Virus record (IMG/VR): IMGVR_UViG_3300047472_000060
Location: 1 to 46,188 of that record
Length of the DNA stretch: 46,188 nucleotides
Source of the DNA: a virus
Direction: 5' to 3' (one strand)
Shown here piece after piece: positions 10,254 to 46,188 of this stretch (position 1 is the stretch's first letter; every line of letters starts with the position of its first letter). The notes under the pieces were generated by a model. It was not told the origin of the DNA and did no database searches. It was given only the letters and a program-made list of their open reading frames with translations. A program made the position numbers and the translations under genes.

Positions 10254-11159
10254 ATGGCTCAGTTTCAGACTTATCAGATGGTCGGCATCAAGGAAGACGT
10301 GGCCGACGTCATCACCAACCTCTCCCCGCGCAAGACGCCCTTCATGTCGAGCATTGGCTCGGAGAAGGTTACGCAGGGCCTGTTCCAGTGGCAGGAAGAC
10401 ACGCTGCGTGCACCGGCCCAGAACGCTGCGGTCGAAGGTGCGGACGCGACCTTCATCACCGTCACCCCGACCACGATGAAGTCCAACTACACCCAAATCT
10501 TCACCGAGGCGGTCACCGTCTCTGACCGTGCCGACGTCGTCTCGACCTACGGCCGGAAGAAAGAGTTCGCTTACCAGATGGCCAAGTCGGCCGCTCAGGT
10601 GAAGCGTGACGTGGAAATCGCCTACGTGGGTCTCGCGGGCACCAAGGCTGCGGGTAACGGCACGACCGTCCCCTCGACCATGGACTCCGCGCAGGTCCAG
10701 ATCGCCAGCGCCAACGTGGTCCGCACCGCTGCGGATGACGCTGCGTTGACTGAGCAGTTGCTGGTGACGGCGCTGCAGGCTGCGTACATCAGCGGCGCTG
10801 AGCCGACCAACATCATGGTCACCCCGACCAACTCAGTGACCCTCGCGGGCTTCGCTGCGGCTGCTGGTCGCTACCGGACCCTCTCGGGCTCGGATGCGAA
10901 GAAGCTGGTCAACGTGGTCAACCTGTATGTCTCGCCGTTCGGTGAGCAGAAGGTCGAGATCAACCGTTGGCTCCGCAACGAGAACACGCTGATCTACGAG
11001 CCCGGCATGTGGACGAAGCCGACCCTTCGTCCGTGGGAGCGCAAGAACCTCGCGAAGACTGGTGATAGCACCAAGGCCATGCTGCTGGGCGAGTTCTCGC
11101 TCAAGCACAAGAACAGCCTCGCGTCGGCGCTGATCGTTCAGAAGCTCACCGGCTTCTAA
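10254..11159 (+). CDS. Major capsid protein (SU10/DUF5309-like)
   Basis: 301 aa. The N-terminus (GIKEDVADVITNLSPRKTPF and QGLFQWQEDTLRAPAQNAAVEG) and the C-terminal INRWLRNENTLIYEP...ERKNLAKTGDSTKAMLLGEFSLKHKN pattern match the HK97-fold capsid family typified by phage SU10 (DUF5309). The gene follows the scaffold after 36 bp containing a purine-rich stretch (GCAGAAGAGAC) that may act as a distant SD. A strong terminator follows immediately, as expected for a very highly expressed gene. Confidence 0.93.
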   Translation: MAQFQTYQMVGIKEDVADVITNLSPRKTPFMSSIGSEKVTQGLFQWQEDTLRAPAQNAAVEGADATFITVTPTTMKSNYTQIFTEAVTVSDRADVVSTYGRKKEFAYQMAKSAAQVKRDVEIAYVGLAGTKAAGNGTTVPSTMDSAQVQIASANVVRTAADDAALTEQLLVTALQAAYISGAEPTNIMVTPTNSVTLAGFAAAAGRYRTLSGSDAKKLVNVVNLYVSPFGEQKVEINRWLRNENTLIYEPGMWTKPTLRPWERKNLAKTGDSTKAMLLGEFSLKHKNSLASALIVQKLTGF

Positions 11160-22040: not shown

Positions 22041-22171
22041 TACGTCACGCTCGCAGTTAGGACCGCAGCAGCGGCCCAATAGATGGTAAGGCGGATATCG
22101 CCAGAGAAACCGTAGACAACCGATGACCCTACGCTCAGCAGGATCATCAGCGTCGGCATTACTTTGATCAC
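22037..22171 (-). CDS. 44-aa membrane protein
   Basis: GTG 22171 lies in a GTGA overlap. Two short hydrophobic segments (TLMILLSVGSSVVYGF and LTIYWAAAAVLTASV) suggest a hairpin in the membrane. A longer form starting at ATG 22231 would run deep into the gene before and is less likely. Confidence 0.6.
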   Translation of the reverse strand: MIKVMPTLMILLSVGSSVVYGFSGDIRLTIYWAAAAVLTASVTY

Positions 22172-22386
22172 GCAGCCATCCAGAGCTTGCCAGAAGCTCC
22201 TGTTGATTTGCTGCGCGCTCGTGAGGACCACACTACGTGTCCTGATTTGTTAAGCTCTGCCATTCGGGTGCTGACAGTCTGAACCCGAAGTCCTGTATCT
22301 GCGCAGATATCAGAGACAGTCACACCCAAAGGGTATCCCTTCACTAACGACAGCAGATGGCTCTTGTAGGCGTCTAAGGTGTCCAA
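22168..22386 (-). CDS. Small winged-helix DNA-binding protein
   Basis: 72 aa from TTG 22386. LLSLVKGYPLGVTVSDICAD and TGLRVQTVSTRMAELNKSGH form a winged helix-turn-helix of the MarR/DprA-C type, followed by a basic wing (SSRARSKSTGASGKLW). It overlaps the exonuclease gene by 13 nt. It probably binds DNA; the target is unknown. Confidence 0.65.
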   Translation of the reverse strand: MDTLDAYKSHLLSLVKGYPLGVTVSDICADTGLRVQTVSTRMAELNKSGHVVWSSRARSKSTGASGKLWMAA

Positions 22387-23246
22387 AGGATCGGTTCTTT
22401 CTTCTTGTTGTCCCAGTCTTGCCAACGAAGGATGCGCGCCAGCCGTGCTTGTCGCAGAGCGTCCTCTTCCGTGAGGCCAGCCTTGGCGTACAGGGAGACC
22501 ACACCGGCCCACAGGTCATCCGTGGGCTCCTCTTTCCATCTGGTCTCCGTCTCGCCCTTGCGCTTGCCCCGCTGCATCGTGTGCTCGTATGGCACGGCGA
22601 TGTAGGGCGCGTTGACGAAGGCTTCTGCGGTGACCATGCCGACCCCGGGGCACCCCGGGTAACCATCAGTGATGTCGCCCGCGAGCGTCTGCATCATGTG
22701 GAACTTGTCGGCCTCCTCCTCCGTTACGGTCACAAGGTCGCCCTTGCGCCATACCTGGGTTGGGATGGTCTGCATGTCCTTGTCCTGCGAGACGATGATG
22801 CGCTGGGTGTCCTTCATCGGCATGGTTGCCAGAACGCCCATCACGTCGTCAGCCTCAAGGCCTACGAAGTTCTTGCAGTTGTACTTGGTCTCGACCCACT
22901 TCCGCATCATCGCGTAACACAGAGGCTTGCGTGAGTTGGCTCGGTTGTTCTTGTAGGTCGGATCGACGTCGAAGCGGAAGTTCGCCTGCTTGTCGAGTTC
23001 GAAATTGAAATCGGAGGTGGTCGAGAAGCATAGGAAGTGCTCCGTGGTCTCGAACCGTTCGAAGAACCGCTCGATCATTTCCTCGAAGACTTGCTGAGCC
23101 TTCCCCGGGGACGAAGTGAGCACGTGGATCGGAGGCTCACGCCAATCAATCTCGTCCAGCACCACGTTCCATTTGGTTTCATGCTCGACAGCAGCGGTTG
23201 CCTTGAACAGCATCTCGTCGCCGTCGATCAGTAGAAGCTTCTTCAC
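22374..23246 (-). CDS. 5'-3' exonuclease (FEN/T7 gp6-like)
   Basis: 290 aa. LLLIDGDEMLFKA (metal Asp), FVGLEADDVMGVLA, IIVSQDKDMQTIP and GDITDGYPGCPGVGMVTA are the conserved FEN-type nuclease motifs, the last being the H3TH DNA-binding loop. In T7-like phages gp6 removes RNA primers and degrades host DNA. It lies downstream of the DNA polymerase, as usual. ATG 23246. Confidence 0.93.
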   Translation of the reverse strand: MKKLLLIDGDEMLFKATAAVEHETKWNVVLDEIDWREPPIHVLTSSPGKAQQVFEEMIERFFERFETTEHFLCFSTTSDFNFELDKQANFRFDVDPTYKNNRANSRKPLCYAMMRKWVETKYNCKNFVGLEADDVMGVLATMPMKDTQRIIVSQDKDMQTIPTQVWRKGDLVTVTEEEADKFHMMQTLAGDITDGYPGCPGVGMVTAEAFVNAPYIAVPYEHTMQRGKRKGETETRWKEEPTDDLWAGVVSLYAKAGLTEEDALRQARLARILRWQDWDNKKKEPILWTP

Positions 23247-28286: not shown

Positions 28287-28760
28287 TCACTTTCTCTTTT
28301 TGGGTTTCTGGTACGCCTTGATCTCTTCGATCCATTCATCCGGCACGACCTTCTCGGCCCACTTGAAGCCGTGATCAGTCGCCCACTTGCCGTAGGTCGT
28401 GGGGGAGCCCTTGTAGATGGGCGTCGATGCTCGGGAGAAGATGAAGCGAATGTCCAACTCAGGATGTTGTTTCTTGAGCAGGACGAACTTCTGTCGTTCC
28501 TTCACGGCAGCGTCTTTGGTGGAGACGCGAAACTTGCCGCCCGGGACCGCACCACCAAAGCGCCCTTTGGGCTCTAGGATGATCGGGCAACCGTCGAAGG
28601 AAAAGTCTGGAAGATACTTAGCCTCGCGCTCAGGCACGATGTACTTGATCCATTGGCTTTCGAAACCAAAGGGCACACCGGCCTGAGTTAGCTTGGCCGC
28701 AGCCTCCCGTTCGAGACCTGAGCGAAACTCAGGCTCGATGGTGAGTGCGGGCTTCGACAT
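28287..28760 (-). CDS. Endonuclease I-like Holliday junction resolvase (T7 gp3-like)
   Basis: 157 aa. FRSGLEREAAAKL gives the first Glu; YLPDFSFDG the Asp and ILEPKGRF the Glu-x-Lys of the PD-(D/E)XK site, as in T7 endonuclease I (Glu20, Asp55, Glu65, Lys67). Lys/Arg-rich end (KAYQKPKKRK). It resolves branched DNA before packaging and helps break host DNA. Next to SSB, as in T7 (genes 2.5 and 3). Confidence 0.88.
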   Translation of the reverse strand: MSKPALTIEPEFRSGLEREAAAKLTQAGVPFGFESQWIKYIVPEREAKYLPDFSFDGCPIILEPKGRFGGAVPGGKFRVSTKDAAVKERQKFVLLKKQHPELDIRFIFSRASTPIYKGSPTTYGKWATDHGFKWAEKVVPDEWIEEIKAYQKPKKRK

Positions 28761-28762
28761 CC

Positions 28763-29362
28763 TTAGAACGGAATGTCGTCGTCCGTGTTGCTGTCCGGTG
28801 CCTCAGGGGCCTCGGGCTCAGCGTCGTCGAGGTCTTCCGACCGATCCTCGTCCGCATCACCACCGTTGAAGACGTAACCGCCCTCTTCGGCTTCGAACTT
28901 GTTCAAGACGCGGGTCTTGAGTTCGATGATCTGGACTTGGTTGATGTAGAGGTTGATGCCTCCACCAAAGCCGTCATAGGCGTTGATAGTGACGTCCGGC
29001 TTGATGATCGAGCCGCCGCCAATCTTCACCTTGTTACGCGGGACTTCGTTGCCCTGCGCGTCAACGAACGGAGGCGGATAGTCCTCGCCCGAAGTCATCT
29101 GCAGAGACAGCTTGCCAGTCTTCTTGTCCTTCTTCCAAGGCAGCTTGGCATCAGCCGGAAGGTTGTTAGCCTTCAACTGCTTCTTCAGATAGGCGTCCAC
29201 CTTGCGATGATCTTCGTCGTTGAACTCGACGCCGGTGATGTAGCGGCGCTTCTCAGGGCCGTTGTTCTTACCGGATGGGGTCTTCGGCTGATAGACATCG
29301 ATTTCGTTCAGCTTCGGGAAAACTGCGATGCCTTTGGGGAGGATAACGGTAGTCTTAGCCAT
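28763..29362 (-). CDS. Single-stranded DNA-binding protein (T7 gp2.5-like)
   Basis: 199 aa. OB-fold-type sequence with VIINAYDG-like core (VTINAYDGFGGGINLYINQV) and an acidic C-terminal tail ending in DDDIPF. The acidic, aromatic-ended tail is the partner-binding tip of SSBs, used in T7 to contact polymerase and primase-helicase. The product coats ssDNA at the fork. Two base pairs separate it from the resolvase gene. Confidence 0.85.
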   Translation of the reverse strand: MAKTTVILPKGIAVFPKLNEIDVYQPKTPSGKNNGPEKRRYITGVEFNDEDHRKVDAYLKKQLKANNLPADAKLPWKKDKKTGKLSLQMTSGEDYPPPFVDAQGNEVPRNKVKIGGGSIIKPDVTINAYDGFGGGINLYINQVQIIELKTRVLNKFEAEEGGYVFNGGDADEDRSEDLDDAEPEAPEAPDSNTDDDIPF

Positions 29363-29413: not shown

Positions 29414-29677
29414 CTATGCGTTGTAGCGGAGCGCGCATTTGCCCCACGTGACTTGAAGGTCACCGTCTGTGCACGTCTTAGGTTTCTTGGTGACCCTCGC
29501 GATAGCCCCCGGGGTCATGCCCCGAGGGAAAGCAAAGGTGCATCGCGGACCGGAGGTCTCGATCTTCACCATGGGAGGCGGATCGAATGTGCCCAACTGG
29601 CCTGCGCCAACAAAGACGACACCAATCAACCACGCAGCAACGCCAAGAAGTCCGATAGTAGTGCCGTCCTGTTTCAT
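29414..29677 (-). CDS. Membrane-anchored or exported small protein
   Basis: 87 aa. One N-terminal hydrophobic segment (TIGLLGVAAWLIGVVFVGAG) and a soluble part with three Cys. AAGG lies 8 nt before ATG 29677. The topology suggests an inner membrane anchor with a periplasmic domain. No family recognised. Confidence 0.65.
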   Translation of the reverse strand: MKQDGTTIGLLGVAAWLIGVVFVGAGQLGTFDPPPMVKIETSGPRCTFAFPRGMTPGAIARVTKKPKTCTDGDLQVTWGKCALRYNA

Positions 29678-29687
29678 CTATGCAGCC

Positions 29688-30368
29688 TTATCTGTTGTGA
29701 ACAGCGTAACCCACGGCCTCAAGCAGAGCTGTGTTGAAGCGAGCCCAAAGGCCCACGAAGAGAACCAAGGCAGCACCAGCTACCGAGGTCACGGTGTGAT
29801 CCAGGTACGGAGCAGCCCACGGATCAGCAGCGATGATGCCACCAGCGACCCAGCCCAGCACGCCAGCGCCTGCCCAGACCATTACGGGGAAGCGTGCGAC
29901 GACCTTGCTGATCAGAGCAGCGCCTGCGATGACCAGAGGGATCGACAGGACGACGCCGGTAGCCATGAGGACCAAGCTGCCATGGGCCAGAGCGGCCACA
30001 GCAAGCACGTTGTCGAGGCTCATGGAGGCGTCAGCCACGGCAATGGTGCCAATGGCCGCAGAGAGCGTGATGCGCCCTACGACGTCTCCGTTCTCGTCGT
30101 TGGCCTCGTCCACGAGGAGCCCATAGGCCACCTTGAGGAGGAACAAACCGCCGAGGATGGACAGTCCCGGGACGCCCAGCAGGAAGACAGCGAAGAACGA
30201 CATGACGACGCGGAGCAGAACGGCTGCAGCAGTGCCGCCGATGATGCCCCACTTCTGTTGCTCAGGTGGCAGGCGGTTGCTGACGAGCGCGATGACGACA
30301 GCGTTGTCACCCGACAGCAGGAGGTCAATCCAGACGATGCCGAGTAACGATACGAGGAAGGTTTCCAA
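29688..30368 (-). CDS. terC: TerC-family integral membrane protein
   Basis: 226 aa from TTG 30368 (GGAG 5 nt upstream). Multi-helix protein with the two signature metal-binding segments SGDNAVVIAL (residues 19-28, first helix) and ADASMSLDNVLAVAAL (112-127), arranged as in the YjbE/TerC family (PF03741). Cellular relatives export Mn2+ or act in tellurite/membrane-stress systems, partly by helping membrane-protein metallation. About seven helices are predicted by eye. It is downstream of a TerB-like gene and two tiny membrane genes in one overlapping run. TerC in a T7-like phage is unusual and may be an auxiliary metabolic or exclusion gene. Confidence 0.88.
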   Translation of the reverse strand: METFLVSLLGIVWIDLLLSGDNAVVIALVSNRLPPEQQKWGIIGGTAAAVLLRVVMSFFAVFLLGVPGLSILGGLFLLKVAYGLLVDEANDENGDVVGRITLSAAIGTIAVADASMSLDNVLAVAALAHGSLVLMATGVVLSIPLVIAGAALISKVVARFPVMVWAGAGVLGWVAGGIIAADPWAAPYLDHTVTSVAGAALVLFVGLWARFNTALLEAVGYAVHNR

Positions 30369-30380
30369 GGAAGCTCCAGT

Positions 30381-30461
30381 TCAGAGGGTGCGAAGGATGT
30401 AGATCAGCAGTGGCGCCCCGACGAAGAACGCCGAGGATGCCACCAGTTGTGCGACGCTCAT
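30381..30461 (-). CDS. 26-aa membrane peptide
   Basis: MSVAQLVASSAFFVGAPLLI plus YILRTL: one hydrophobic helix. ATGA overlap with the previous mini-gene and 12 bp from terC. Coding supported by the overlap chain terB - mini-gene - mini-gene - terC. Confidence 0.55.
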   Translation of the reverse strand: MSVAQLVASSAFFVGAPLLIYILRTL

Positions 30462-30532
30462 CGAAACAGCGTTGCCGTGAACGCGGCAGCGAATAACACT
30501 GCCAGCGTCCACTCGACGAAGTTCTCGATCAT
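30458..30532 (-). CDS. 24-aa membrane peptide
   Basis: MIENFVEWTLAVLFAAAFTA plus TLFR. ATGA overlap with the end of terB and with the next mini-gene. One membrane helix with an acidic N-terminus and an Arg at the C-terminus. Confidence 0.55.
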   Translation of the reverse strand: MIENFVEWTLAVLFAAAFTATLFR

Positions 30533-30963
30533 CCGAGGAGCTTCGCGCCGTCCACGTTGAGCAGCTTGGCGATGTCGTTCAGTACGACTTGCTCCTCGGC
30601 GCCGATGCCGCCCTGATCGGCAACGTCGGCCGCGATCAGGAAGACGTCCTGACGCACGGTAACGTCGCGGGTCATCAGCGCTTCGATGTTGCGCTTGTTC
30701 TCCATGCGGCCAGCACGCGACTTCGCACGCGACAGAGCAGCGTTGAGGGCTTCCTCGATCTGCGACGACGAGTAGGACGCCGAGACGATGGGGTTGGCCT
30801 GCATGCCTGAGATGGCGCTTTCGATTTCGCTGTCGTCGATGGCGCCATCCGCTGCTGTGACGTTGGCGGCGGCCGAGGACACACCCTTCAGGAAGGCGCT
30901 GTCGCCCGCGTAGGAGTTGAAGGTCTTGGTCGCGGTGGCGAGGATGTTCTTGAAGAAGCTCAT
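30529..30963 (-). CDS. terB: TerB-like protein
   Basis: 144 aa. Helical, with VTAADGAIDDSEIESAISGM (residues ~35-54) and a second acidic helix-loop (IAADVADQGGIGAEEQVVLN), the two metal-binding Asp/Glu motifs of the TerB fold (PF05099). TerB proteins are cytoplasmic or membrane-associated metal-binding partners of TerC. AAAGGGAC is the SD for ATG 30963. Co-occurrence with terC in the same operon supports a shared job. Confidence 0.85.
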   Translation of the reverse strand: MSFFKNILATATKTFNSYAGDSAFLKGVSSAAANVTAADGAIDDSEIESAISGMQANPIVSASYSSSQIEEALNAALSRAKSRAGRMENKRNIEALMTRDVTVRQDVFLIAADVADQGGIGAEEQVVLNDIAKLLNVDGAKLLG

Positions 30964-30976
30964 AGGATCAGTCCCT

Positions 30977-31090
30977 TTAGAAGAACCATCGGCTCACGGG
31001 ATATCCGCGAGCAATCTTGATGGTCAGATTGATGATGTAGACAACCCCGACAGCGTCGAGGATGTGGTCAGCGAGAACGGCGACGATCAT
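30977..31090 (-). CDS. 37-aa protein upstream of terB
   Basis: MIVAVLADHILDAVGVVYII then NLTIKIARGYPVSRWFF; one amphipathic or membrane segment. ATGA overlap with the gene before. May belong to the terB-terC group. Confidence 0.55.
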   Translation of the reverse strand: MIVAVLADHILDAVGVVYIINLTIKIARGYPVSRWFF

Positions 31091-33933: not shown

Positions 33934-33960
33934 CATTTTGACACTAGGAAGCTATTTGGT
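33934..33960 (-). promoter_or_regulatory. Putative phage RNA polymerase promoter A
   Basis: Minus-strand motif CCAAATAGCTTCC-N4-GTCAAAA, one of three matching 25-nt copies, placed immediately after the RNA polymerase stop and before the accessory operon. Position and repetition fit a phage-polymerase promoter; an operator is the alternative. Confidence 0.6.
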
Positions 33961-36494
33961 CACGCGAAGGCGTAGACTGCGCTCAGCACCTGCTCCAGCG
34001 GCAAATCCCCCGGAATAGGCTTCGGAGCCTTCTCAAGCTCTTTGGCCAGCTTGGCGCGTCCTGCCTCGGATAGCTGCGCGATGGCATTATCCAGAAGCTC
34101 CTGCAGGACGTCGGTATTTTGATAGATGCGCAGGAACTCTTCGCGGATCACCTCATTGAAGAGATCAGCATCCGCTGGAAGGCAACCGTAGCTATCATGC
34201 ACCGTCGCGAAGTCCACGACACCTCGATCAGCAGCCGCGTTCACAGAGGCCTGCAGATGCGCGCCGTCGAGGGCATGCACGAAGTTAGGGGCAACACCAT
34301 TGGTCACCTCACGCTTCGCGATGTTCGTGTCGAAGCCATCGGCAAGCGAGGTCTCGACGGTCACCCGAACACCCTTGCTGTAGCAAGAGAGCTTGATGAC
34401 CTTCACGTTGGACGTATGGTAGCGGTTGATCCAAGGGAGACCCATGGGCGTCTTCCACGTCAACGCAGCGCCTTCGTGAGCGAGTTGCTGTGCAAGCTTC
34501 TGCATGAAGGCCATGGCCTCGGCAGGCTTACCCACGACGCTCTTAATGGCCGCCATCGTGCGCTTGGCGAGATACGACGCGGCCAACTGCTGCTCGGCAA
34601 AGGTGGTGCCGAACGGATAGTTGCCCTTGAGGCTCTCAGCGTCGATGGTGTCTTCCACGTGCTGTTCCTTCATCCCGTTCTCTTTCGAGCTATAGGCGAA
34701 GGTCATCACGTTACGCTTCACGAGCTTGCGGTTGACGCCATACTCAATGGCGAGTTGCGCGAGGTCACCCAGCGTAGCATTAGCCTTGCGGGGAGCGTCA
34801 GCGGGGCCCTGCGCGTAGAACAGGGTGTTGCTGTACTTGTCGGCCTCGATGCTCTTGAGCGCAGCGTCAGCAACCAACTGATAGATGTCCTCAGGCGAGG
34901 CGTTGTCAGTCAGGTTGACGTAGCGCCCCTCAGGCGCACGGGTCATGGCGCACAGATGCTGCAGGCCATTGCAGCTACCATCGAACGCTACCGGGAGGTG
35001 GCAGACATACGACGGGTTGCCCCATGCGTTCACAAGCTCACGGGCTGCAGCAAGGAAGGCGAACGGCTTGTCAGCCTTCGTCCAGTCGGTGTTGTGGAGC
35101 GGACGCGCAACGAAGTCACGCAACAGGTCAATGTTGTCGTCGCACCACTTCACGCGCACAGGCATCGGCTGCTTGTCGAGCTTCTGCTCACCGCTCCAGG
35201 TATTGGCTACCTGCAGTTTGAGGTGATAGATGCCCCGCTCGCCAACCGGCTTGCCATTGGCAAACAGGAACATGCCGCGCACGTAGTCCTCGCGCTGGAA
35301 GTTGAATTGCGTGAGGTAGTAAACGCGACCGCGCCAGTCGAGGTTCATCGGGGTAAAGAAGCGGTCAGCAAGCTGCATGCGACGGGCCACGCTCAGGTCG
35401 ATGTTGAACTTGAGACGTGCAGCCTTGTCGATGCGGTTACGCTTCTTCTCGGTCTTGATCTGAGCAGCGCGACGTCCCTGCTCTGCCTTGGTCATTGCAG
35501 CCCACACGTCATCAGGCGAACGCGGGGTGACCTTCTTCGGCTGCTGCGGAGGCACACCCTTCACCTCGATCCCAAGGTGATCGCATTCCTGCAGGACACC
35601 GAGGAGCCAACCATTGAGCTTGTAGGGCACGCTCTGCAGGTTGTTGACCGCACGCATGACGCCATCCATCTGGCCTGTGCGGATGGCGTGCTTGATGGCA
35701 GCGACGGTCTCTTTGTGAAGCGTGCGGACCAAGGGGACCGCAAGAGACCCAAAGCGCCTGTCTTCTGCAATCTTCGAATAGAAGCCCGTCCAGTCGTCAG
35801 GCTTCACAGTGCGCGGCTGATACACTGGCGACTTCAGCACGGCATCGTTGACGACGTCGTCCATCATGGTCGCGGCTTCGTCAGTGACGGTCCAAGACTT
35901 CTCGCTGTCGTTCGGTATCTCGCGAAGCTCGAACACGTCAGGCAGTGTCTGCAGCAGGATGTTCACGCCCCACTGGCCAGCGTGCAGGCGCATAGGCCGC
36001 GTCCATTCCTCCATAGTGAACCCAAGGCGGCTGGAGGCGTCCTTGATCACCTTGGCCTGCCTGAGCTTCACGTTGGCGAAACGCTCACCAGCGGCCTTCG
36101 TAATGGCCCCTGCGGCCTTCTTGTCGGTCACCAGCAGCTTGGCCATGTAGGCCTCGGTCCACAGCGAGCCACCAATGGCCAGTGCGGCGTCACGGTGGGT
36201 GTGTTCGAGGGCCACGCTGTTGAGCGCAGGCATCAGGCACGCCAAGGCGATCACCTCGGGCTGCAGTCCCCTAAGGACCCTCTGGAGCCGGAACTCCATG
36301 CTATCGGAGCGGAGCTTGTGGCTGTTGTTCAATGCATCAACGACACCCGCCGTCACGGCCTTAAGGCTGCGCTCGGTGAGCTTGCGTGCACCTAGGGTGC
36401 TGCTGAACCCTTCGTTGGTCCTAGCTCTTGTGTCTTGGGTGGTGATCTTTTTAACGGCTAGATCGAATTCCAGAGTAGACGGAATGGCGTTCAT
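33960..36494 (-). CDS. Phage RNA polymerase (T7-type, single subunit)
   Basis: 844 aa (T7 enzyme 883). Palm motif A is PVAFDGSCNGLQH (Asp505), motif B is KRNVMTFAYSSKENG (Lys593, Tyr601), and motif C is ATVHDSYG (His766, Asp767). The NLDWRGRVYYLTQFNFQ segment is the T/DxxGR motif, and the C-terminus ends YAFA, like the FAFA foot of T7 RNAP that contacts the +1 base. It would transcribe middle and late genes from its own promoters. It lies after a terminator, putative promoter B and a leader, so its expression may be autogenous. The start ATG 36494 has AAGGAAC upstream. Confidence 0.97.
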   Translation of the reverse strand: MNAIPSTLEFDLAVKKITTQDTRARTNEGFSSTLGARKLTERSLKAVTAGVVDALNNSHKLRSDSMEFRLQRVLRGLQPEVIALACLMPALNSVALEHTHRDAALAIGGSLWTEAYMAKLLVTDKKAAGAITKAAGERFANVKLRQAKVIKDASSRLGFTMEEWTRPMRLHAGQWGVNILLQTLPDVFELREIPNDSEKSWTVTDEAATMMDDVVNDAVLKSPVYQPRTVKPDDWTGFYSKIAEDRRFGSLAVPLVRTLHKETVAAIKHAIRTGQMDGVMRAVNNLQSVPYKLNGWLLGVLQECDHLGIEVKGVPPQQPKKVTPRSPDDVWAAMTKAEQGRRAAQIKTEKKRNRIDKAARLKFNIDLSVARRMQLADRFFTPMNLDWRGRVYYLTQFNFQREDYVRGMFLFANGKPVGERGIYHLKLQVANTWSGEQKLDKQPMPVRVKWCDDNIDLLRDFVARPLHNTDWTKADKPFAFLAAARELVNAWGNPSYVCHLPVAFDGSCNGLQHLCAMTRAPEGRYVNLTDNASPEDIYQLVADAALKSIEADKYSNTLFYAQGPADAPRKANATLGDLAQLAIEYGVNRKLVKRNVMTFAYSSKENGMKEQHVEDTIDAESLKGNYPFGTTFAEQQLAASYLAKRTMAAIKSVVGKPAEAMAFMQKLAQQLAHEGAALTWKTPMGLPWINRYHTSNVKVIKLSCYSKGVRVTVETSLADGFDTNIAKREVTNGVAPNFVHALDGAHLQASVNAAADRGVVDFATVHDSYGCLPADADLFNEVIREEFLRIYQNTDVLQELLDNAIAQLSEAGRAKLAKELEKAPKPIPGDLPLEQVLSAVYAFA

Positions 36495-36751: not shown

Positions 36752-37876
36752 CTATAAGGCTTTCTTGAAAGCAACCACTTCGCTGCTGTCGGGAATTTTG
36801 CTCTCGCCCCCAAGCGTTGGGGTGAGAAATTCGACGGCTTGGACGAGGTCTTCGCTCTCCACGTGGACATACTTCTCGGTCGTCTTGTAGCTGCTATGTC
36901 CCATGAATGATTGGATTTTTGCCGTCGCCATGCCCTGCTTGGTCAGGTAGGTCGCAGCCGCGTGACGTGCTCCATAAAGCGTGAGGTTCGGCGGCAACCC
37001 AAGCAAATCCCTTGCGACGTCGAACCTAGTGCGCGAGCGGCTGTAGTTTGGACGCCATTCGTTCCCGATAAGTGCTCGCACCTCTCGCGCCAGCGCAGGC
37101 GTAATAGGGATGTCTCTGGGATGATTTGTCTTGGTCCGATCTAGCTTGATCCAACCCACCTCGGAACCATTTCCCGCCTTGCTGATGGTGATCATGTGAG
37201 GCTCCAGCCCCGCGAATTCCGACCACCGCATGCCGCTGGCGCACAGGGTCCGCACGATCAGCGCTTCCTCGGGCCAGCCCTGCTCCAGGTAATAGCGAAC
37301 GAGCAGCGCTTGCTGGTCTTGGGTCATAAAGTAGATGCGGGTCTCGATGGTCTCTTGCCACGGCACCTCGGGCACCCGGAAGTCCCCATAGACCTTCGGG
37401 CGCGACGCGGCCCACGTCAGGACGGCGCTGGCCATGGTCAGGTAGCCGTTGATGGTGCGCCCCCGCAGCTTGCCCGTATCGTTGCGACGGTTGACCACCT
37501 TGCGCTTGCGCAGGGCCGCCACAAGCCCGTCGAGGTCCTCAGTGCTGACGTGCGCGACCGGCACATGCCCGATGTGCTCAATCACCCAATCGAGCCTGCG
37601 CTGTCCGCTGACGTCGCGGCCCTGCAGCCAGACGTCATGCTTCTGTCGCATGTCCTCGGCCGCCTCTTTGAACGAAGGGCCCTTGGCTTCCTCGGCCGAC
37701 TGTTGGGGCCATAGGCCTGTCGCGCGCGCGTAGGTCTCTGCGGCCTCGGCCTCGGCCTTGCTGTCGAATGCACGACGCATGCGCTTCTCAGGTTGGCCCT
37801 TAACACGCCACCAGAAGTCTACGGCCCAGCGGCCCGTATGCTTTCCAGTGCGGCTGTCACGTTCGGCGAACGCCAT
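36752..37876 (-). CDS. int: Tyrosine-type integrase
   Basis: 374 aa. N-terminal arm-type DNA-binding part (GRWAVDFWWRVKGQPEKRMR), a core-binding SAM-like domain (~residues 68-165), and a catalytic domain with GMRWSEFAGL (Arg), DRTKTNHP (Lys), LYGARHAAATYL (first His replaced by Tyr; Arg-His kept), GHSSYKTTEKY (His and nucleophile Tyr). The Tyr-x-x-Arg variant occurs in active relatives. It would catalyse attP x attB recombination at the neighbouring tRNA-Cys-like site, so the phage is probably temperate. Confidence 0.93.
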   Translation of the reverse strand: MAFAERDSRTGKHTGRWAVDFWWRVKGQPEKRMRRAFDSKAEAEAAETYARATGLWPQQSAEEAKGPSFKEAAEDMRQKHDVWLQGRDVSGQRRLDWVIEHIGHVPVAHVSTEDLDGLVAALRKRKVVNRRNDTGKLRGRTINGYLTMASAVLTWAASRPKVYGDFRVPEVPWQETIETRIYFMTQDQQALLVRYYLEQGWPEEALIVRTLCASGMRWSEFAGLEPHMITISKAGNGSEVGWIKLDRTKTNHPRDIPITPALAREVRALIGNEWRPNYSRSRTRFDVARDLLGLPPNLTLYGARHAAATYLTKQGMATAKIQSFMGHSSYKTTEKYVHVESEDLVQAVEFLTPTLGGESKIPDSSEVVAFKKAL

Positions 37877-38236: not shown

Positions 38237-38620
38237 TCACCCCTTGCAATAAGAGCGCAGCACAGTGACCCACTGGCGAACCAGCGTGCGGCCTTTGGGG
38301 GTTACCTTGACGTTATGCTTGCGCAGGTCGAACGGGTCGCGTTCGTTGGTGACCAGCGCAAGGCCTTCTGCCTTGTGTCGATTGAGTGAGCCGATATCCA
38401 GAATGTTGCGTGTCATGACGCTGGGCGCGATGTCGCCAATACCAGCGTATTCATTGACGCCTAGACCTTCCTCCTCAGCGATGAGCAGGAATGTGCGTAG
38501 GTAGCTCAGAGGCACGTCACGACGCATTGTGTAAAAAGGCTCTAAGGCAAGTCTGAGCGCGCGAGCAGCGGCGCGTTCTTCGTCGGAAAGCATTGGTTTA
38601 AAAGACTGATGCGCAGGCAT
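38237..38620 (-). CDS. MarR-like transcriptional regulator
   Basis: 127 aa. RDVPLSYLRTFLLIAEEEGL, GIGDIAPSVMTRNILDIGSL (recognition helix) and DPFDLRKHNVKVTPKGRTLV (wing) make a MarR-type winged helix. MarR proteins in phages often regulate early or lysogeny genes. Next to integrase and the attP-like site, it is the best candidate here for a repressor or lysogeny switch component; no CI- or Cro-like gene was seen. Confidence 0.8.
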   Translation of the reverse strand: MPAHQSFKPMLSDEERAAARALRLALEPFYTMRRDVPLSYLRTFLLIAEEEGLGVNEYAGIGDIAPSVMTRNILDIGSLNRHKAEGLALVTNERDPFDLRKHNVKVTPKGRTLVRQWVTVLRSYCKG

Positions 38621-40386: not shown

Positions 40387-40479
40387 TCAAAGCAGATTGA
40401 TGATTAAGCCTGCGCCGTAGACCATTGCGCCAAGCCATAGGGTGATCAGAAAAGCCTCGTGCCATGTCTCACTGATCAT
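40387..40479 (-). CDS. 30-aa membrane peptide
   Basis: MISETWHEAFLITLWLGAMV then YGAGLIINLL. One hydrophobic helix; ATGA overlap with the Cys-rich gene. Confidence 0.5.
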   Translation of the reverse strand: MISETWHEAFLITLWLGAMVYGAGLIINLL

Positions 40480-41225
40480 GCTGCAGCCCTCGCGTTGAAG
40501 GCGTTCACCTTGCCAGCCGCGCCATGGGCAACGATTGCGATATCAACCTTTGCCTTTGCGCCATTGCCGCCACACGCCTTGCACGCGCTGCAGTTAGTCT
40601 TTGCGCCAGCCTCTTTAGAAGCCGGGCAAGCAATTTCACGTGGCTGCATACGATCACCCGCGCGCATGACGCGAAACGTGCGCCAGCCTTGCGCCTTGGC
40701 TATCTCTTGCTCGAAAGCGCTGTCACACGACGCCATGCAAAGGTCGCGCAAGTCGTCATTGGTACGCCATTGGTGAGTGTAGCCCGTGTGGCCCTCAGTG
40801 AACGCGACAAGCGCACGCCACACATGCGCGGGGACTGCAGCCGGATCACCATAGCTACCAAGGCGCACAACCTTGCCAGACAACGCAAGCGAAGCGGCAT
40901 GCTCATTGAGTTGAGGATACAGGCCGCGTTGTGCAGCCTTCCACACGACAAGCGGAGCTTGAAACACAGTGACGTAGCACGACCGATTAGCGCCGTTGCC
41001 ATCGCCACGGTGAATGCAGCTACCGCAAATTGACTTGTCCGCGCCAGCCTTCACAGCGTCAACCGGGCTCATATCGTCGCGCAAAATCCAAGTCTGCACT
41101 TCCGAGCCCGTCTTGCCGTTGCGGCTTCCACGCGCCGTGCCTGTGGCCACAGCGATGATTGGTGCACCGTCAAGCATCGACGGGCCACGATAGAAGATGA
41201 AACCATTAACCTGAGAGATAGCCAT
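40476..41225 (-). CDS. Cys-rich protein, 249 aa
   Basis: From ATG 41225, 6 nt past putative promoter D. Cys clusters CGSCIHR, CYV, CMASCDS, CPASKEAGAKTNCSACKACG suggest bound zinc or iron-sulphur; the GSEVQTWILRDDMSPVDAV region is conserved in other phage and plasmid proteins of unknown role (DUF7227-like by memory). C-terminus is Ala/Lys-rich. Could be a host-takeover or nucleic-acid-binding protein. Spacing of Cys pairs does not match radical-SAM CxxxCxxC. Confidence 0.7.
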   Translation of the reverse strand: MAISQVNGFIFYRGPSMLDGAPIIAVATGTARGSRNGKTGSEVQTWILRDDMSPVDAVKAGADKSICGSCIHRGDGNGANRSCYVTVFQAPLVVWKAAQRGLYPQLNEHAASLALSGKVVRLGSYGDPAAVPAHVWRALVAFTEGHTGYTHQWRTNDDLRDLCMASCDSAFEQEIAKAQGWRTFRVMRAGDRMQPREIACPASKEAGAKTNCSACKACGGNGAKAKVDIAIVAHGAAGKVNAFNARAAA

Positions 41226-41230
41226 TGCGT

Positions 41231-41262
41231 GGAAGCCTTTTGACAGATGGAAGCTATTAGGA
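41231..41262 (-). promoter_or_regulatory. Putative phage RNA polymerase promoter D
   Basis: Minus-strand motif TCCTAATAGCTTCC-N4-GTCAAAA-GGCTTCC, very close to copies B and A, in front of the Cys-rich gene. The AAAAGG at its end could also act as SD for that gene. Confidence 0.65.
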
Positions 41263-41275
41263 CAAAGCGAAGGCG

Positions 41276-41506
41276 TTAGGCCGCGATCAAGATCATGGGG
41301 AAGTCGGCAGCACAGCGCAGCGCAATGGCGCGTGCGGCTTCCTTTGCAGCCTCGGACGTCGTGAACACGCGAAACTCTTGCGCGACACCCTGAGGCACCT
41401 TGCAACCGACCATGCGGCCCTTGTCGGCGCGCAAGGTGATCATGGGCAGATAGTTGATTGCGCCGTTGCGGACGATAGCCTTGGACGAAGCGTGCATCTT
41501 GATCAT
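41276..41506 (-). CDS. Unknown 76-aa protein, first leftward gene
   Basis: MIKMHASSKAIVRNGAINYL, beta-rich then a helix (TTSEAAKEAARAIALRCAAD). GGGAATGAG precedes ATG 41506. Probably the first product made by host RNA polymerase from the divergent control region. Confidence 0.65.
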   Translation of the reverse strand: MIKMHASSKAIVRNGAINYLPMITLRADKGRMVGCKVPQGVAQEFRVFTTSEAAKEAARAIALRCAADFPMILIAA

Positions 41507-45576: not shown

Positions 45577-46188
45577 GCCCCACTACAACTCAAGACTCTT
45601 CGAAGCAGACGTCCCCTTGGGGCCCGCAGGCCGACGCTCTGCAGCAGGCTTTCCAGCAGGCGCAGAACGCTTACCAGCAGACGCAGAGCAGCGGCGCAGC
45701 GAAGTCTCCGACTGATTACACTGCCGGTGCTAACCAGAACCAGCAGAACACTTACCAGCAGGCCATCGACTTCTCGAATGGCAACGCTGGGACAGCACAG
45801 AGCCAGATCGGCGCAGGCCAGACCGCGATGAACAGCGGTCAGACCAACATCAACAACGCGACCAATGGCCTCAACAGTTTCAGTTCTGTCAACTCGAACA
45901 ACCCGCAGTCGCTGATCGACGCTGCGAACTCGTATGCCTCAGGTCAGAACATCCCGGCGCAGGTTAAGCTTGCGATGCAGGGTGCGACCGAACAGGCGCG
46001 TGATGTCACGATGCCCGGAATCGAGCAGGCTGCATCCAACAGTGGCAATGCCAACTCTTCTCGTGCAGGTATCGCGGACGGTCTCGTCCAGCGCGGCCTA
46101 GCAGAGCAGTCGGCCAACCTCTCTGGCACCTTGCAGTCGCAGGCGTTCCAGAACGGCCTCACGCTCGCGCAGCAGCAGGCGCAGAACA
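45567..46188 (+). CDS. Gln/Asn-rich virion protein, 5' part
   Basis: Starts at ATG 45567 (MSLGPTTTQDSSKQTSPWGP) and continues across the join into 1-489; the frame is conserved through the overlap. Bases 46062-46188 are the duplicate of 1-127. Gln/Asn/Ser-rich low-complexity helix; see the 3' part for the role. Confidence 0.85.
   Translation, partial: MSLGPTTTQDSSKQTSPWGPQADALQQAFQQAQNAYQQTQSSGAAKSPTDYTAGANQNQQNTYQQAIDFSNGNAGTAQSQIGAGQTAMNSGQTNINNATNGLNSFSSVNSNNPQSLIDAANSYASGQNIPAQVKLAMQGATEQARDVTMPGIEQAASNSGNANSSRAGIADGLVQRGLAEQSANLSGTLQSQAFQNGLTLAQQQAQN
46062..46188. repeat. Terminal direct repeat, right copy
   Basis: Identical to 1-127. Removing it leaves a 46061-bp circle. Confidence 0.95.

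Follow-up and report, generated by a model that had tools for sequence, protein, structure and literature searches.

A TerB-like protein and a YjbE-type TerC encoded with coupled membrane micropeptides in an exchangeable block of a T7-type phage: a possible role in metal handling

Our study describes a gene cassette in a viral DNA of 46,188 nucleotides, analysed over its whole length and referred to here as the window. Five open reading frames form a tight chain on the minus strand, transcribed from position 31090 to 29688 in the order p37, TerB, p24, p26, TerC. The first, p37 (30977..31090), encodes a one-helix membrane protein of 37 amino acids; it is followed by an all-helical TerB-like protein of 144 amino acids (30529..30963), by two one-helix peptides of 24 and 26 amino acids, p24 (30458..30532) and p26 (30381..30461), and by a TerC protein of the YjbE subfamily (29688..30368; 226 amino acids) with a TTG start and GGAG upstream. 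An earlier note on this DNA had described a tight, overlapping chain; stop and start codons overlap as ATGA at the TerB/p24 and p24/p26 junctions, and gaps of 13 nt and 12 nt separate p37 from TerB and p26 from TerC. TerB, TerC, p37 and p26 are conserved across related viral contigs (loci compared with the window carry L numbers below), and their pN/pS ratios, summed over 21 pairs, are 0.21 for TerC, 0.39 for p37, 0.44 for TerB and 0.54 for p26. This conservation and the values below 1 argue that the chain is more than a chance arrangement, and the five-ORF cassette at 29688-31090 is confirmed as real. The weakest gene call on sequence comparison is p24, copies of which occur in the window and L001 only; it is a lineage-specific extra gene, nearly private to the window phage, and is not conserved. 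Profile searches of Pfam, PHROG and TIGR gave no family match for p37, p24 or p26.

The larger membrane protein scores 138.7 bits against PF03741 in Pfam (cut-off 27.8) and 186.9 bits against TIGR03717, the YjbE subfamily (cut-off 134.8), and its acidic motifs, LSGDNA/SGDNA and ADASMSLDN, which contain GDN and LDN, are invariant in 22 viral copies. Profile and motifs clearly place it in the TerC family, as a YjbE-type protein whose acidic intramembrane motifs are intact. Its structure model shows eight helices at low confidence (pLDDT 68), compared with the seven transmembrane helices typical of the family. In the TerC tree, the TerCs that lie next to a TerB cluster together (support 0.98 in FastTree but only 64 in IQ-TREE), so that this single grouping is suggestive. 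The TerC C-terminus in the window (29688-29735) is longer and different, reading NTALLEAVGYAVHNR where most close relatives have KNKAA; the change lies near the point at which similarity to L065, a relative lacking the block, resumes, and looks like a recombination junction.

The TerB protein scores 17.5 bits against Pfam TerB (PF05099), under the gathering cut-off of 24.4, which among 18 viral records tested is passed only by the TerB of L031. It matches PHROG 632 ('tellurite resistance') over nearly its full length with an E value of 2.7e-20, and a profile built from its alignment finds the TerB structure 2JXU in the PDB (E 0.0045). The predicted structure (pLDDT 86) has a single meaningful Foldseek match in the PDB, 2OU3, a tellurite resistance protein from Nostoc (probability 0.92 and TM 0.53, but E 0.42). 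Two acidic motifs, AADGxIDDxE and ADVADQGGIGxxE, are conserved. The PHROG match, the profile match to 2JXU and the likeness to the Nostoc fold together support a TerB-like protein, although it falls below the Pfam cut-off. Of the two Pfam placements that the earlier note had foreseen, that of TerC in PF03741 stands, while TerB does not reach the PF05099 cut-off and is placed with the TerB proteins by the other evidence.

One-helix peptides recur at this position. In 22 of 33 loci a strongly hydrophobic ORF of 20-45 amino acids starts at the TerB stop, encoding one-helix peptides of 23-32 amino acids; p24 was counted as this peptide in the window and L001, and p26 starts inside TerB's own stop in relatives without p24. 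As background, a hydrophobic ORF was found at the stop of 38 of 1,450 ORFs, a count that includes the TerB cases, and in 0.5% of shuffles. The peptides fall into several groups of unlike sequence. Each overlaps the TerB stop and can lie hundreds of bases from TerC; peptide similarity nevertheless correlates with that of TerC (r=0.74) and of p37 (r=0.55) more than with that of TerB (r=0.16). Shared lineage accounts for part of the association with TerC, since it is TerB that swaps. Hydrophobic micro-ORFs coupled through ATGA or GTGA are also seen at the end of 40476-41405 (30 amino acids) and of 22168-22512 (44 amino acids), and such small coupled membrane peptides may be widespread in the phage. 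Where a locus has no peptide at the TerB stop, the TerB-TerC gap in most cases holds a G+C-rich hairpin. Hairpins in this gap, some of them terminator-like, were noted in L015, L016, L018, L020, L029, L031, L231, L232, L237, L239, L240, L241 and L253, and four close relatives that do have the micropeptide (L007, L008, L009 and L011) carry a terminator-like hairpin just before TerC. Folding tests of the hairpins were mixed, with z from -0.8 to -4.8 and only some individually significant, and the window contains no T-tailed hairpin; where present, the hairpins may set the ratio of TerB to TerC.

The upstream gene has a different distribution. The p37 protein ends in K-I-x-R-G-Y-P-x-x-R-W-F-F. 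Copies 51-100% identical are found next to TerB in T7-type relatives; in L018-L021 they lie on the downstream side of TerC. A search by DNA pattern found ten viral contigs (L265, L267, L269, L270, L271, L273, L276, L277, L281 and L282) that carry p37 with neither TerB nor TerC, which rules it out as an obligate Ter component and shows that it is not specific to the cassette. A profile search found p37 absent from T7-type relatives that lack TerB and TerC, so that within this clade it travels with the block. The pattern NHxLDxxG...YPxxRWFF marks a conserved phage membrane protein that is also present in large viral contigs.

The association of TerB with TerC extends well beyond the window. A first scan with TerC found TerB upstream on the same strand, adjacent or with small genes between, at 32 of 33 loci (the exception being L033). 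A deeper scan with a TerC alignment added further loci, in which TerC identity falls to about 36-53%; TerB lies directly upstream of TerC in eight of these distant loci (L231, L232, L237, L239, L240, L241, L251 and L253), and others, such as L242, L243, L249 and L250, have TerC without a nearby TerB. The search for TerB-TerC neighbours suggested in the earlier note thus finds the pair repeatedly in viral sequences. Over the deep set the distances of TerB and TerC correlate with r=0.87, a value reached in 0 of 2000 shuffles, but within the T7-type clade r falls to 0.10, TerB swapping between TerC types. By these comparisons the pair has been kept together over deep divergence. In a viral contig of 150 kb (L238:2716-4600), TerB is followed by a gene of von Willebrand type A appearance and then by a YjbE-type TerC.

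Two close relatives define the limits of an exchangeable block, p37-TerB-p24-p26-TerC, at 29702..31090. In L065, similarity to the window extends to 31091 (91.7% over 157 nt) and picks up again at 29701 (90.9% over 1.7 kb), and in L073 it extends to 31087 and picks up again at 29552; in both the block is missing, between flanks ~70-92% similar to the window. About 12 close relatives covering the site have the block and two do not. More distant T7-type contigs are mostly without TerC, and in L015 the block lies elsewhere in the contig. The pattern shows that in T7-type relatives the whole block comes and goes together, in the region that follows the phage RNA polymerase. At the block site, L065:5494-5878 and L073:4155-4593 have two unrelated small ORFs, one of 58 (L065) or 75 amino acids and one of 72 (L065) or 73, the latter likely a membrane protein. 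The cassette is adjoined by p87 (29414..29677, minus strand), a small protein with an N-terminal hydrophobic stretch, which is present in relatives without TerB and TerC (for example L065, L073, L091 and L096) and belongs to the phage backbone. Both p87 and a 77-amino-acid gene were rejected as parts of the cassette because they occur in relatives that lack the pair.

The genes around the cassette are those of a T7-type phage; those given here with positions lie on the minus strand. A T7 endonuclease I-like protein (28287..28760; Pfam PF05367, 1e-38) and a gp2.5-like single-strand DNA binding protein (28763..29362; PHROG 112, 1.4e-13) are encoded below it, and a T7-type single-subunit RNA polymerase (33960..36494; PHROG 414, 2.9e-180) upstream; primase/helicase, DNA polymerase and exonuclease genes are also present. 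A TerC/TerB pair with tiny membrane genes is indeed borne by a phage with a T7-type RNA polymerase, as had been claimed. Upstream of the polymerase are a tyrosine integrase (36752..37876; Pfam PF00589, 51.4 bits; PHROG 1, 1.1e-43) and, upstream of the integrase, a transcriptional regulator (38237..38620; PHROG 9665, 2.8e-19). This placing of integrase and regulator, genes that the earlier note had left out, suggests that the phage is probably temperate, and a comparable layout of integrase, regulator and polymerase is known from LUZ100, a temperate T7-like phage (PMC10134795). An integrase was found in all ten TerBC-carrying T7-type relatives tested and also in most of those without TerBC. The closest cultured helicase, from Rhizobium phage RHEph21, is only 46% identical, and at the nucleotide level positions 22000-46188 match no cultured phage. 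For the major capsid protein (10254-11159), the nearest relatives among cultured or catalogued phages are less than 40% identical and come from phages without T7-type genomes. Judged by its genes, the genome is a mosaic of T7-type replication genes and polymerase with a capsid of another kind. A perfect direct repeat of 127 bases stands at its two ends (1-127 and 46062-46188), as expected from a circular or end-redundant assembly, and the window, in itself an entire virus record, is thus probably a complete genome. A search for phage-promoter motifs returned coding repeats only.

The nearest bacterial relatives of the TerB protein point to a host. TerB relatives were found at 49 bacterial loci, 48 of them from Methylobacterium (40-51% identity) and one from Beijerinckiaceae; plasmid matches to TerB are all from Methylobacterium, and TerC relatives at 50-54% are present in some genomes of that genus. 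The host is therefore likely to be Methylobacterium or a neighbour. No TerC was found adjacent to TerB in the Methylobacterium TerB loci, and of 150 genomes from the order only 3 carry TerB of the window type; capture of a whole host operon was rejected on both grounds. The stand-alone Methylobacterium TerBs (L141-L189) branch, with weak support, within the viral TerB diversity, hinting at exchange of TerB between phage and host.

We propose, with a probability of about 0.45, that the cassette gives rise to a reduced TerB-TerC complex adapted to the phage, which changes how the infected cell handles metal, most likely Mn2+, at its inner membrane. In this model the soluble, helical TerB, with its acidic loops, would dock on TerC from the cytoplasm as a sensor or regulator, TerC would move or load metal at the membrane, and the coupled one-helix peptide, placed beside TerC, would regulate it as a small subunit. 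During phage growth this might protect the cell, whether infected or lysogenic, from metal or oxidative stress, or might supply metal to enzymes. The proposal draws on the family assignments, the invariance of the TerC motifs, purifying selection, the linkage of the two genes, their congruence over deep divergence, the exchange of the block as a unit and the absence of TerD and TelA, and on the tracking of TerC by the peptide sequence. It also draws on published work on TerC: the Bacillus subtilis TerC proteins MeeF and MeeY are active in Mn efflux and provide exported enzymes with metal (PMC10550928), a TerC-TerB complex has been reported from proteomics, and terC of Klebsiella pneumoniae affects Zn, Mn and phage resistance (PMC12054061). 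Other reports count against a role in metals, as K. pneumoniae TerC failed to act as a Zn/Mn efflux pump in a sensitive strain (PMC12054061) and YjbE of B. subtilis, the closest of the named subfamily members, had no fitness phenotype in the conditions cited (PMC10550928). The weak TerB-TerC correlation within the T7-type clade likewise gives no sign of a partner-specific fit at short range, confidence in the TerC model is low, and the correlation of the peptide with p37 points in part to shared lineage. Rfam gave no match to the yybP-ykoY Mn riboswitch at the locus, which also weighs against the proposal, and control of the cassette by such a riboswitch was dropped. A stronger version, which we think doubtful, holds that TerB, the one-helix peptide and TerC form a dedicated phage complex in which the coupled peptide is a true TerC subunit or regulator, the pair being an old viral module that controls host metal pools or membrane entry.

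An alternative that we consider possible, though unlikely, is superinfection exclusion, in which TerB, TerC and the peptides would alter the inner membrane and so stop competing phages from delivering their DNA or developing. Exclusion genes are often variable, exchangeable cargo, as this block is, and the phage is probably temperate. Cellular ter genes are linked to phage inhibition and terC of K. pneumoniae to phage resistance (PMC12054061), and this use has already been proposed for the Ter systems of jumbo phages (PMC7824862). The model in that review, however, relies on TerD, TelA, vWA and nucleotide enzymes, and neither TerD-domain proteins nor TelA were found in the window record or in 15 related records; their absence leaves a stripped-down pair and argues against both a full Ter system and the tellurite operon (terZABCDEF, TelA). 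The invariant transport motifs of TerC would be needless for mere insertion into the membrane. A known defence system was rejected, PADLOC having returned one weak match at chance level (ThsA, E 0.004).

Somewhat less likely again is that the pair is cargo that helps the lysogen against metal or oxidative stress, in leaf or soil life, with little lytic role. The integrases of the window and of its tested TerBC-carrying relatives favour this, as does the prevalence of Methylobacterium, plasmids included, among the nearest bacterial TerBs; but relatives without TerBC have an integrase too, and the block is placed in the replication region, downstream of the phage RNA polymerase, as lytic genes would be. 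A scan that is insensitive for the likely host detected no sigma-70-like promoter close by. A further reading is that the cassette loads metal into exported or envelope enzymes while the phage infects, for instance in lysis or envelope remodelling. It has a parallel in the reported action of B. subtilis MeeF/MeeY alongside the Sec translocon (PMC10550928), yet it is improbable here, as the window shows no exported metalloenzyme linked with the cassette and p87 is a backbone gene. Tellurite resistance, suggested by the family names and raised in the earlier note, was set aside as the main function and is very improbable, the minimal tellurite unit reported being TerC with TerD (PMC12054061) and both TerD and TelA being missing from all 16 records. 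Metal buffering is thus the best reading among those weighed, and it overlaps in part with exclusion and with lysogen fitness.

Phage ter genes have been published from jumbo phages (PMC7824862), Pseudomonas syringae phages (PMC11256456) and Paracoccus phages (PMC6536676), and among cultured phages 42 records have TerC and three have TerB. None of the five cultured-phage records examined has the two adjacent; in Rhizobium phage RHph_I1_18, which has both, they are 18 kb apart. The earlier suggestion that the cassette is not a standard podophage module is borne out for the pairing, absent from the cultured phages examined, but phage ter genes as such have precedent. Within an incomplete coverage of the literature, we found no publication on a two-gene TerB-TerC phage module or on the micropeptide. 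We regard the paired minimal cassette, its setting in a T7-type genome and the micropeptide as new, and phage TerC and TerB genes and larger Ter sets as known. The role of phage ter genes, and of TerB generally, is a long-standing gap, and the tellurite-resistance label is doubtful. A 46-kb phage with a stripped-down, exchangeable pair, and with natural versions that have or lack it, offers a small system in which roles in metal, exclusion and stress could be separated; should the micropeptide prove to be part of TerC, it would join the tiny membrane proteins known to tune transporters.

A comparison with known systems shows where the cassette departs from them. Its TerC resembles the YjbE-subfamily proteins (PF03741/TIGR03717) in exceeding both cut-offs, in the GDN and LDN motifs and in a length of ~220 amino acids, but it has no Mn riboswitch at the locus, is paired with TerB and falls in the TerB-adjacent group that the tree, with uneven support, sets apart from bacterial and cultured-phage TerC. 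Its TerB shares with the TerB family (PF05099, PHROG 632, 2JXU, 2OU3) two acidic loops, the PHROG 632 match and, in its predicted structure, a helical and possibly TerB-like fold, and differs in scoring under the Pfam gathering threshold. The temperate T7-like phages LUZ100, Pasto and HTVC019P also have a regulator and integrase beside a T7-type RNA polymerase, to which the window phage adds TerB-TerC. The Ter systems of jumbo phages and the single genes of Otagovirus, Pyxisvirus, phiM5 and Pyei1 are likewise phage-borne, with proposed roles in exclusion or stress; jumbo and cultured phages have either single genes or bigger sets that include TerD, vWA or TelA, whereas here two genes form the core, accompanied by a coupled micropeptide, in a genome of T7 type.
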